64,000 bases of DNA from Actinomycetes bacterium (GTDB lineage Bacteria > Actinomycetota > Acidimicrobiia > Acidimicrobiales > RAAP-2): NCBI GenBank assembly GCA_021793395.1, contig JAJYSU010000002.1:22766-86765 (forward strand), read 5' to 3'. The first letter of the stretch is position 1, and every line of letters begins with the position of its first letter. The position numbers and the translations under genes are program-made. Under the pieces are notes generated by a model. It was given only the letters and a program-made list of their open reading frames with translations, was not told where the DNA came from and ran no database searches. This document shows, piece by piece, positions 10,061 to 15,660 of the stretch.

Positions 10061-10131
10061 GCGGGTGTAGCTCAATGGTAGAGCTCCAGCCTTCCAAGCT
10101 GGCCATGCGGGTTCGATTCCCGTCACCCGCT
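10061..10131 (+). tRNA. tRNA-Gly (anticodon TCC)
   Basis: A complete 71-nt cloverleaf: acceptor GCGGGTG/CACCCGC, D arm GCTC...GAGC, anticodon stem CCAGC/GCTGG around the loop CTTCCAA (anticodon TCC), and T arm with GTTCGATTC. Discriminator T; CCA is not encoded. Its 3' half is duplicated at 15,612-15,660, marking it as an integration target. Confidence 0.97.
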
Positions 10132-10132
10132 C
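10084..10132 (+). repeat. Left attachment site (attL) within tRNA-Gly
   Basis: The 49 bp from the anticodon stem to just past the tRNA end recur as a direct repeat at 15,612-15,660 with 47 of 49 identical positions. Integrases of the tyrosine family commonly use the 3' half of tRNA genes as att sites and restore the tRNA on integration. Confidence 0.8.
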
Positions 10133-10219
10133 TCCACAGTTTCCCCGAAAAGCCAATGACGCCAAGGCTTCTAGTTTTCCGACCGTTGACCGCCAGGCAC
10201 CGCGAGTGTCCATTGTGGG

Positions 10220-10256
10220 GTGCCTTTTAGTGCCCGTTGGTGCCCACGTAGTGCCC
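10220..10256. repeat. Phased GTGCC(C) repeats next to attL
   Basis: GTGCC occurs at 10,220 and GTGCCC at 10,230, 10,240 and 10,251, a helically phased array about 90 bp inside the attL end. Such clustered short repeats are typical of arm-type integrase binding sites; that role is inferred from position. Confidence 0.5.
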
Positions 10257-10654
10257 AAAAGGGACCAAACGTCAGCCAGTCGTCATTGGATTCACGTGCC
10301 GAGTGACGAAGAAGCCAGCAGTTTATTTCGTGCACCGACCCGATGCCCGGGACAGCAGTGAACAAGACGTAACTCCCTGCACACAAGGGCAGCGAGTTCG
10401 ACGTAGTCGCACCGTCCGCGTCAGCCCACGTACTTCATTCCTCCTCGCGATCGAGTTCTTGGCTCTCGCCTCGTCGAATCTCGATTACGCCATCGTTCAG
10501 GCGACCACGGCTACCTGTGCGCTCATCATCTACACGAACGGCGGACTCTCGTGGCACGCATGCGCTCCGTATCCAGTCGCCGCCAAGAGATCCTGCGACC
10601 GGGAACGCCTTCCTACATTGGATGCTGCCTCCCGACCGGCCACTCGCGAGCTGC
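10257..10654. other. 398-bp non-coding stretch in the island
   Basis: Track ORFs here have no recognisable protein content and are probably chance frames. This is where an integrase gene would be expected; I see none, nor a fragment of one. Confidence 0.5.
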
Positions 10655-11710
10655 TTACCCGCAGAGACCGAGAACCGCTTGCTCAACCGCGCTCTTCACC
10701 TCTTGGCCCATTTTCTCGAGACCCCGATGGGTGATGGGAATATTCGCTCCTCCCCAGCCACCCCAACGTTCCGAACGTGTGATGAGAACCGACTTCCTCC
10801 GGCTGAGGCGCACCAGCGTCACTGTCGCCGTTCCGAGGGCAAGTTCCACACTCGTCGATCCAGATGCGATGACTTCATCGGTGGCGGCACTGACGCAACC
10901 GTTGAGCCACGCCGGCAACTGCCGATGTAGTGAGTCGGCCGGCGAAACTTCCAACGCCTCGATACGAGGGTTGGAGAGCAGCTCGTCGATGAGACTTCTC
11001 GAACCCGCGACGTAGGTCCATGCCAGGTCAATCTCGCTGGCGACGCACCATGACCGATCAATCGGCCACCAGAGATTCGGCGACTGAAACCTCGACACGC
11101 TGAAACAGGTAGCGCCCACCACCGGTCCTTCAAACATCGCGTACGAACGCCATGGCAACTCGAAGACTGGCGTCTCACCAACTCGCCGCGGGAGTTCATC
11201 GGCGAGGAGCCCCTGCACACTCAATGTACCCCCATAACCCTCCCAGACGCCGAATAGACAGAGTCCCGTCGACCGGGCAGAGAGAACGCTCACCAGTTCA
11301 AGTGCGTCGGATCGCGATAGTGAGCCCTCTCGGGGGCCTTGGCCGGACCAGGGAGGCCCTGTAAGCGGTGGCACCTCGGGTAGTGCCACCTCATGCCACA
11401 GAATCGAGGCGTCGAGCGCGACGTCACTCCAGCGAGAGACGTCCGCCCATCGAATTGGTGGCTCACCGTCGCGCTCTTCCACAGGATGAAGCATCCGTGC
11501 GTACGCTTCGAAACCCGTGGGGACCCACGAAGTTACTACTGCATCCCGTGGCGACCGGAGACGCTCACGGAGCCACGCGAAGCGCGAGAGTCCATCATCT
11601 GACAAGTCCAGATTGGAAAGCCGCACGCTCGTATACTGGCACAGCCGCCATTCGATTCGTTCCAGTTGACGCCGTCGAATCGTGCCACAATGCACGTCAG
11701 CCCACCGCAC
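10655..11710 (-). CDS. Conserved hypothetical protein, island cargo
   Basis: A 351-residue soluble protein with no signal peptide. Tryptophan-rich blocks stand out: SWVPTGFEAYARMLHPVEE near residue 65, CLFGVWEGYGG near 152, and SPNLWWPIDRSWCVASEIDL near 210, followed by SRSLIDELLSNPRIEALEV. The pattern looks like a family of actinobacterial hypothetical proteins, but I cannot assign a function. The first 45 residues are less conserved in appearance, so the start may be downstream. Codon choice is less GC-biased than in the flanking housekeeping genes, consistent with transfer. The frame is intact, unlike most other genes of the island, which suggests it is still selected or recently arrived. 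Confidence 0.65.
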   Translation of the reverse strand: MRWADVHCGTIRRRQLERIEWRLCQYTSVRLSNLDLSDDGLSRFAWLRERLRSPRDAVVTSWVPTGFEAYARMLHPVEERDGEPPIRWADVSRWSDVALDASILWHEVALPEVPPLTGPPWSGQGPREGSLSRSDALELVSVLSARSTGLCLFGVWEGYGGTLSVQGLLADELPRRVGETPVFELPWRSYAMFEGPVVGATCFSVSRFQSPNLWWPIDRSWCVASEIDLAWTYVAGSRSLIDELLSNPRIEALEVSPADSLHRQLPAWLNGCVSAATDEVIASGSTSVELALGTATVTLVRLSRRKSVLITRSERWGGWGGANIPITHRGLEKMGQEVKSAVEQAVLGLCG

Positions 11711-13858: not shown

Positions 13859-14516
13859 GACTCCGACCTCGCACTCACGGCTCGCCGCCGCTTGGCGTGC
13901 CATCGCCGCATGAACGGAGAGCGTCCTCCGCGTCCTCGACGATTGATGCCGTACTCTTCGAGCCTGCGAAGGATGGTAGGTGTGGGCGAGCCTGTGAGGA
14001 GCTCAATGTGGAACATTGAGAGGCCGCACACGCTGTACAGATCAGTCAGAAGCCCTTTGGTCAACTCAACGGGCAATGGAAATCGCTGCCAGAGAGGACC
14101 GGCTTCGCGCATGAAGGGAACTCCGTGATGCACGAGAACCCGCGACACCTCAGTGTCTTCGTAGAGAGCATCCATGAGGACGATGTCAAGTGCCTCCGAC
14201 GGTCGGTGAGATCCGCCCGCGCGCACCGGGAGCCCCCCGAGTGTGCGGACCGCAGCACAATCTTCCCGGACATGCCAAGCTCCTCACCCACCGACGCGGC
14301 GGGCCACTCCTTTTCAATGTAGAGGCGACGAAGTTCTTCGGGATCGACATCGCCTCGATCACAGCGATTGAACTGACCGCGCGGCCGCGTCTCGATCCCC
14401 CACAGTTTCAGTCTGCTCCTCACCAGGCGATCGGAAATGCCCAAGCCCTTGCCGATCTCAACCGAGCTCATCTGACAGTTGATGTAGAGGTAGCGGAGCA
14501 ATTCCTCACCTATCAT
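13855..14516 (-). pseudogene. Helix-turn-helix protein gene split by a frameshift
   Basis: Two overlapping frames belong together. The first (14,516 down) reads EELLRYLYINCQMSSVEIGK and ELRRLYIEKEWPAASVGEEL, two HTH-like repeats. The second resumes as LPVRAGGSHRPSEALDIVLM and ends MRRWHAKRRRAVSARSES. The switch falls on a run of six G in the coding strand (plus-strand C6 at 14,233-14,238); adding one G restores one continuous protein of about 219 residues. A DNA-binding role is inferred from the HTH motifs. It is coupled by ATGA to the Nudix frame, so the pair may have been a regulator and enzyme. Confidence 0.7.
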
Positions 14517-14721
14517 CCTCTTAACCTTCAGTGGTCAACGGCGACCCGCACCGGTTGCCTTCTTCAAGTGGGGTGCCTTGCCCGCCGCCCAGATAAGACA
14601 CTCTGCATTCGCAGTCGCCGTCCGGTCGCAGGCAGGGCATGGAGTGCAGCTTCCTCGTACCCGTCGCAACCCTTGGGATCTCGTCAGGGACCGGCGAGTT
14701 CGATACGAGGTAGTGGCTTAG

Positions 14722-15234
14722 CTATTGACCCCGGTCGTGCCTGCTTACGAAGCGCCATTGGATCTCGCTATCGACTTCACTGGAACGATTGAAGCCGACC
14801 CGCTCAAGTGTGCGGATGGATGGCAGATTGTTGGGGTCGCAGCTGGCTTCTATGGACCGAACAGTCGGCTGGGCCAGTGCCCATTCGACAAGTGCTCTTG
14901 CCGCCTCTGTGGCATAGCCGTGACGGCGCCGATCTGGGATTACGCTGTACCCGATTTCGATTGTACCCGCACCATCTGGCGGTCCCTTGAAACCGATATC
15001 GCCGACAACAGCTCGACTCGCGCTGTCGATCATCACCCAAACGCCGAAGGGTTCCGCCGCGGGAGACACGGGCGGTCGTAAACGAAGCACACCGAGAAGA
15101 TTCGGCTCCGGCCACGTTGGCAGCAGCGTCGCACCGAGGACGATGCCCGCTTTATCCCTGTCCTCAGACAACAACACAGCTGCATTTGCAGGCAGCGGCT
15201 TCAGTTCAAGTCGCTCAGTCGTTAGGCTCGGCAT
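14722..15234 (-). CDS. GNAT family N-acetyltransferase, RimJ/RimL type
   Basis: A 170-residue acetyltransferase of the ribosomal-protein/antibiotic acetyltransferase type: TTERLELKPL at the N-terminus, FGVWVMIDSASRAVVGDIGF for the central sheet, IEIGYSVIPDRRRHGYATEA containing the acetyl-CoA loop R-R-x-G-Y-A, and NLPSIRTLERVGF in the last helix. Acceptor unknown; members acetylate protein N-termini or small amines. This is the only clearly intact enzyme gene of the island and its last gene before the right tRNA repeat. Confidence 0.85.
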   Translation of the reverse strand: MPSLTTERLELKPLPANAAVLLSEDRDKAGIVLGATLLPTWPEPNLLGVLRLRPPVSPAAEPFGVWVMIDSASRAVVGDIGFKGPPDGAGTIEIGYSVIPDRRRHGYATEAARALVEWALAQPTVRSIEASCDPNNLPSIRTLERVGFNRSSEVDSEIQWRFVSRHDRGQ

Positions 15235-15611
15235 TTCACGACCCTACTGCCATGTCGCAAGCGCAGTACAGGGTATTCGGTGCGAGCCCAGTCGCCTGTG
15301 GCAAGCGCCGAGTCGGCGTTCTGCTTGGCGGCTGGCCGGGACCGCTGGCGCGACGTCGGCGGCGAGAGTCGGCCACACGACGCCGATGTCTGCGCTCGGC
15401 GCGGCCACCGCCGTCGGCGTGCGCGCTCTGGCGGAGCCACGAACGGAACCGAGCCGTACCGTCCCGGCGGCCCGTCGGCATGGGGAACCTGAGGGAGCCG
15501 CGAGGTGGTCCTGTCGCTCTCAGAGTGGCACGGACGTGGCACGGCAGCCTCTCTGAACTTCCAGATTAGGGGCTCTGACGTGCCCTGATTCGTTCCTGCG
15601 GGAGGACACGA
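15235..15611. other. 377-bp non-coding stretch at the right end of the island
   Basis: Several overlapping chance frames on both strands. One minus-strand frame has GC-rich third positions (near VAAPSADIGVVWPTLAADVA) but no start codon, so it may be a gene remnant. No recognisable feature otherwise. Confidence 0.4.
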
Positions 15612-15660
15612 CTCCAGCCTTCCAAGCTGGCCATGCGGGACCGATTCCCGTCACCCGCTC
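15612..15660 (+). repeat. Right attachment site (attR), copy of the tRNA-Gly 3' half
   Basis: Contains the anticodon stem-loop, variable region and acceptor 3' strand of tRNA-Gly but no 5' half, so it is not a functional tRNA. Two adjacent changes (TT to AC) in the T-loop distinguish it from the true gene. Confidence 0.8.

Follow-up and report, generated by a model that had tools for sequence, protein, structure and literature searches.

The stretch between the two copies of a tRNA-Gly(TCC) 3′ end (positions 10133 to 15611) is very probably the remnant of an integrative element of the IntGly type that entered the tRNA gene, lost its integrase by deletion, and is now decaying. It has an att pair, left arm repeats, a gene order in common with an integrase-bearing sister element, and no integrase. 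The island lies in the window, the whole 64-kb stretch of DNA analyzed here, on contig C47 of a draft genome (G000; 2.13 Mb, 92% complete) whose closest named relatives are Acidimicrobiaceae MAGs. Relatives were sought in another 98 genomes of this genus (99 genomes in all), and IntGly is the name that we give to one tyrosine-integrase family at the tRNA-Gly locus. An earlier note on this DNA had offered two readings, a decaying integrated element whose integrase has been lost or a satellite that used an integrase supplied from elsewhere; the first is supported by the sister element in G047, with its same left end and gene order, and by a deletion breakpoint, and the second found no support in the window's own genome.

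Tyrosine integrases target the 3′ ends of tRNA genes. Repeat alignment and a core pattern search confirmed that the 3′ half of the tRNA-Gly recurs to the right, with the two copies (10084 to 10132 and 15612 to 15660) forming a 49-nt direct repeat in which 47 of 49 positions (96%) are identical, with two mismatches and a spacing of 5,528 bp. The repeated part is exactly tRNA positions 24 to 72, which is the usual shape of an att core; displaced copies in relatives start at tRNA positions 24 to 32 and end at position 72. A 21-nt core pattern, searched with up to three mismatches, matched the 64-kb window only at the two att copies (0.00 matches expected from 100 shuffles), without any third tRNA-Gly fragment, and a whole-genome search of G000 gave the same two copies and no other. 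Islands integrated at tRNA genes are typically recognized by an intact tRNA gene together with a displaced fragment (PMC4383910): the complete left tRNA is what is expected when an element restores the gene that it entered, and the original end now lies displaced as the right copy. The features of the locus are collected in Table 1.

Table 1. Features of the tRNA-Gly island and its flanks (window positions)
Feature	Coordinates	Strand	Basis
Globin-like gene, conserved left chromosomal flank	9634-10044	-	Family read from the protein, no profile run
tRNA-Gly(TCC), intact; 3′ part 10084-10132 is the attL core	10061-10132	+	ARAGORN and Rfam
attL arm, four GTGCC[C/T] repeats at +88, +98, +108, and +119 from the tRNA end	10220-10256	+	Spacing shared with G047
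BNR-repeat protein relic, 47 residues of the C-terminus	10426-10566	+	57% identity with the G047 protein at its C-terminus
331-residue gene, no family assigned, intact; longest frame 10655-11710	10658-11650	-	Homologues in relatives
Breakpoint where G047 homology ends, about 25 bp short of the stop codon of the G047 integrase	11688-11689		Alignment
Alpha/beta hydrolase gene, C-terminal fragment, interrupted by transposon	11755-12163	-	484-residue relative in G026 (L208)
Nested nonautonomous transposon, about 35-bp terminal inverted repeats	12164-13432		Target duplication CATTGATC at 12156-12163 and 13433-13440
Ornithine cyclodeaminase family gene, truncated, 260 of about 305 residues	12389-13168	-	PF02423, 1.8e-35
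NUDIX gene, without C-terminus	13556-13903	-	PF00293, 2.6e-13; 209 residues in G046
HTH-protein gene, frameshifted, frames 13855-14226 and 14061-14516	13855-14516	-	Single open frame in G046
GNAT acetyltransferase gene, intact	14722-15234	-	PF13302, 2.9e-21
Weak attR-arm-like pair GTGGCA-N5-GTGGCA, -87/-76	15525-15542	+	Off the family consensus
Displaced tRNA-Gly 3′ end, attR core	15612-15660	+	Repeat comparison, core pattern search
Additional acquired DNA beyond attR, with GNAT and PIN-domain genes among others	15661-18822		Parts related to other contigs in other genomes; Pfam
Conserved chromosomal flank on the right, with a short conserved gene (-, 18823-19197) and a gene for an MFS-type transporter (+, 19331-20773)	18823-20773		Same order after tRNA-Gly in relatives; family names without profile

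Next, we compared the island with its sister in G047. The absence of an integrase between the copies, claimed in the earlier note, was borne out: tblastn with eight family integrases gave only chance-level matches there, with neither a gene nor a relic detected. The left end of the window island (10049 to 10256) is 84% identical to G047:C33, and positions 10412 to 11688, which hold the 331-residue gene and, before it, the last part of the BNR gene, are 87% identical to G047:C30:590-1863, after which G047 has an intact IntGly gene. The first G047 contig ends with the tRNA, the left arm, and the opening part of a gene for a secreted protein; the second begins with what reads as the remainder of such a gene (BNR repeat), followed by the 331-residue gene (minus strand), IntGly, an RHS-repeat gene, and the displaced tRNA end with canonical arms. 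The BNR gene appears to be cut at the contig break, and we infer that the contigs join and that the left end and the integrase form one element. Compared with G047, the window is missing most of the BNR gene between the two matching parts. The homology stops just short of the position of the integrase, which therefore points to its deletion; this breakpoint and the lack of any integrase trace beyond it are the main evidence that the gene was probably deleted and not absent from the start. The RHS-repeat gene of the sister element (L226 4033-9540) encodes 1,836 residues with RCC1-type repeats and is part of its cargo; an RHS gene is also found inside the G029 element.

The attachment arms agree with this relationship on the left side. 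Intact elements of the family have four GTGCCC-type repeats 88 to 130 bp past the tRNA and, in 10 or more relatives, a GTGCCC-N5-GTGCCC pair at about −95/−84 from the displaced copy. The attL arm of the window is the only 55-bp stretch with four or more GTGCC on either strand of the 64 kb; the G047 repeats lie at +98, +108, +119, and +130, and the spacing is similar in other IntGly elements. On the right side, the pair of GTGGCA motifs 11 bp apart ranks only 7,078th under the family matrix, and since it is not the family motif, the right arm has decayed, been replaced, or come from another source. Without a canonical arm pair, the right tRNA copy could thus stem from a different insertion or have been rearranged. 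This noncanonical arm is one reason to consider that the island might be composite, made up of at least two stacked elements, with the left att from one insertion, the right att older, and the internal att sites deleted; moreover, tandem elements occur at the locus in G006, the relatives of the interior genes are scattered over other contigs, and accretion is a known route (PMC5704250). We nevertheless consider a composite unlikely, as the window has no third tRNA fragment and as G047, with the same left half, has one displaced copy only in the sequence examined. A composite would still be a decayed element and so overlaps with the preferred reading, from which it differs in denying a single insertion.

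IntGly was found at the tRNA-Gly(TCC) locus in at least 11 genomes (G002, G006, G022, G024, G029, G034, G042, G050, G051, G070, and, split, G047). Full-length proteins in eight relatives at the locus are 65 to 88% identical to the G022 protein, and the genus-wide search added G034, G042, and the split G047 element as well as IntGly genes at other sites, some of them beside tRNA-Gly(CCC). Truncated IntGly genes at the same site in G073, in G064, and in the first element of G006 are other stages of decay. Within G000, no IntGly-family gene was detected elsewhere at an E value of ≤1e-10, in a genome that is 92% complete and from which a gene may have been missed. The integrases that it does have (two Xer-like proteins, a C31 trio of neighbors, a single one on C13, and a C10 fragment) were rejected as IntGly at the same threshold; the three adjacent tyrosine recombinase genes (G000:C31:1317-3402; L160, L161, L163) are like a recombinase-in-trio element.

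These searches bear on whether the island was a satellite-type element that never had an integrase of its own and used the IntGly integrase of another element, which we regard as improbable. Islands in G010, G014, and G096 have family attR arms with no family integrase detected at the site; in G010 and G014, a family integrase is found on a different contig, and a satellite origin may apply to relatives such as these two. In the window, however, the left end matches that of an integrase-bearing element, as do the genes as far as the integrase position, the homology breaks right next to the integrase, and no helper integrase was found in the own genome at its 92% completeness.

The tRNA-Gly locus is a hotspot of integration throughout this Acidimicrobiaceae genus. 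The order of globin-like gene and tRNA-Gly is kept in about 60 of the 99 genomes, and extra tRNA-Gly 3′ ends occur at the locus in about 20, the other occupied loci having an interval of 0.6 to 10 kb with one extra tRNA 3′ end. The MFS-type gene lies at a varying distance from tRNA-Gly in relatives and is preceded in several by a homologue of the short gene at 18823 to 19197. The shortest intervals, 1.2 to 1.4 kb from the tRNA to the right flank with a single tRNA copy (G093, G081, and G095), are taken as empty sites by synteny, not at the base level. The comparison with an empty site that the earlier note had proposed covers gene order, and no empty site was seen at the base level; the closest relative by DNA, G049, is unusable for this, with contigs that break on both sides of the locus. 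The variable interval of the window runs from 10133 to about 18.8 kb, and the acquired DNA thus extends past the right tRNA copy. Just beyond the att pair, a 117-bp direct repeat (16310 to 16426 and 18725 to 18841, 92% identical) encloses a 2.4-kb segment with the PIN-domain gene. At G026:C16 (L125), the displaced 3′ end is about 0.6 kb from the tRNA-Gly end, with left arm repeats and no integrase, and this very small island is an extreme stage of decay.

The earlier note had counted a widely found tRNA pseudogene as evidence against integration. To the letter, tRNA fragments are widespread, but they are the right ends of integrated elements and therefore support the reading as an integrated element. 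That the window copy is a pseudogene or local duplication unrelated to integration, as its length of only 49 bp might suggest, is scarcely credible when the repeat reaches from the anticodon region, as at other loci, to precisely the 3′ end of the tRNA, when the integrases of one family sit at the locus, and when integrase-bearing relatives contradict it.

We also evaluated the state of the genes between the copies. The statement that most of them are broken or truncated holds for five genes or relics (the BNR-protein relic, the hydrolase fragment, the cyclodeaminase, the NUDIX gene, and the frameshifted HTH gene) and fails for the 331-residue and GNAT genes, both of which are intact. The similarity of the hydrolase to its G026 relative picks up again to the right of the nested transposon, and in G046, which is 82% identical in DNA to window positions 13575 to 14552, the NUDIX and HTH genes are intact neighbors. 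The 331-residue protein is 85% identical in G047 and 54 to 62% identical in G044, G050, and G051, with a further homologue in G078; its gene has a dN/dS of 0.25 against G047, a sign of constraint, so it may still work. The protein had no match in Pfam, NCBIfam, or PADLOC, and its predicted structure was poor (mean pLDDT of 46) and was set aside. In G044, G050, G051, and G078, the gene is at the same locus, outside an att pair or without one, and we dropped it as a marker of one element because it lies beyond the att pair in three of these genomes (G050, G051, and G078). That it is not a strict marker counts against the preferred explanation, as do the noncanonical right arm, the split of the G047 element over two contigs, and the lack of an empty site at the base level. 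In a PADLOC search of the cargo, no window protein matched a defense system, the weak matches being to HipA and NUDIX relatives only. In G050:C75 (L151 1634-3111), a HipA gene and a small HTH gene lie between attL and the integrase.

In the decayed-element explanation, an integrative element would have entered the 3′ end of tRNA-Gly(TCC) by means of its IntGly tyrosine integrase, rebuilding the full tRNA at the left (attL) and pushing the original 3′ end to the right (attR). The integrase would then have been deleted, with the left breakpoint about 25 bp before the position of the stop codon in the sister element, and other genes would have been broken by truncation, frameshift, and insertion of a small transposon, leaving an att-flanked element without integration or transfer genes (a CIME). 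We infer a single insertion as the source of both att copies, a deletion later than the integration, and a loss of the ability to self-excise.

The island is of a known kind, a well-documented case and not something new, and it is best filed as a CIME (cis-mobilizable element) derived from the IntGly group. CIMEs are decayed relatives of ICEs and IMEs that keep their att sites and have lost their integration and transfer genes (PMC5704250), and the island, too, lies at a site where related elements stack. Here, attL and attR are both retained (the core repeat and the left arms, with a noncanonical right arm), and integration genes are absent between the copies and present in the sister; no Tra or Rep homolog was found in the island, where transfer genes would formerly have been present. 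The island differs from the class in being small and heavily broken and in its noncanonical right arm; a CIME can be mobilized in cis by an incoming related element, which for the island would be a prediction from its sequence. Relatives of the lost integrase share features with AICEs of the pSAM2 type (integrase, RepSA, and FtsK-type Tra at a tRNA 3′ end), whereas the window has none of these three genes. We rejected the island as an AICE after searching for integrase, Rep, and Tra: no tyrosine or serine integrase was found in it, RepSA was absent from the window, RepAM and Prim-Pol were not among the island Pfam matches, and an FtsK/SpoIIIE-type Tra was not in the island, the only FtsK-family match in G000 being on contig C38. 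Islands in the Islander database are also marked by an intact tRNA and a displaced fragment (PMC4383910), but Islander requires an integrase inside and would reject this one.

The nested transposon was a separate subject of analysis. It is inserted within the hydrolase gene and is flanked on either side by an exact 8-bp duplication, CATTGATC; its cyclodeaminase gene lacks the last 45 or so residues that are present in the full-length versions of G051 and G080. The same ends, with 8-bp duplications directly at them, occur in six genomes (G004, G012, G016, G019, G020, and G065), and all six copies (L265, L269, L271, L273, L274, and L281) enclose only a tnpB-type gene, identified by Pfam in G012 and by inspection of open frames in the other five. 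These tnpB genes inside the same ends are the most unusual by-product of the analysis. An 8-bp target duplication would fit ISL3. We rejected ISL3-type ends, since the ISL3 transposases in these genomes had no shared repeats; none of the ISL3 loci in 15 genomes has these inverted repeats, and no transposase moving the family was found among the ISL3 families searched. Mobile insertion cassettes (MICs) similarly have inverted repeats around a passenger gene and no transposase, although the family of the nested transposon usually carries tnpB as the passenger. Published descriptions of bacterial TnpB elements give them neither inverted repeats nor target duplications (PMC3627910), whereas their Fanzor relatives in eukaryotes do occur in transposons with both (PMC10711439). 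We tentatively suggest, as a possibility somewhat short of probable, a bacterial transposon family with classical inverted repeats and exact 8-bp target duplications in which tnpB is usually the only gene; the nested transposon would be a member in which a captured host gene has taken the place of tnpB. If true, this would parallel in bacteria the way in which eukaryotic cut-and-paste transposons captured Fanzor, and the family offers a case, open to testing, in which an RNA-guided nuclease travels inside a transposon that depends on a separate transposase for its movement.

Some members of the IntGly group elsewhere look like AICEs. RepSA (PF20199, 1.8e-115) adjoins IntGly in G002, G022, G024, G029, G034, G042, and others, and G078:C16 (L321 11720-15989) and G022:C78 (L323 7453-14194) have the gene order FtsK type, RepSA, IntGly, which is the AICE-defining gene set of PMC3218068. 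The integrase of G078:C16 ends about 0.2 kb from tRNA-Gly(CCC); no right att was found for either element in the sequence stretches examined. A 2011 survey reported no AICEs in the Acidimicrobidae (PMC3218068). The relatives analyzed here show modules of RepSA and integrase in Acidimicrobiaceae, in some cases with FtsK-type genes; later reports of such modules were sought in open papers only. The window island itself is one well-resolved example of the decay of an integrative element at a tRNA gene, and its relatives show intact, truncated, and integrase-free stages at the same locus.
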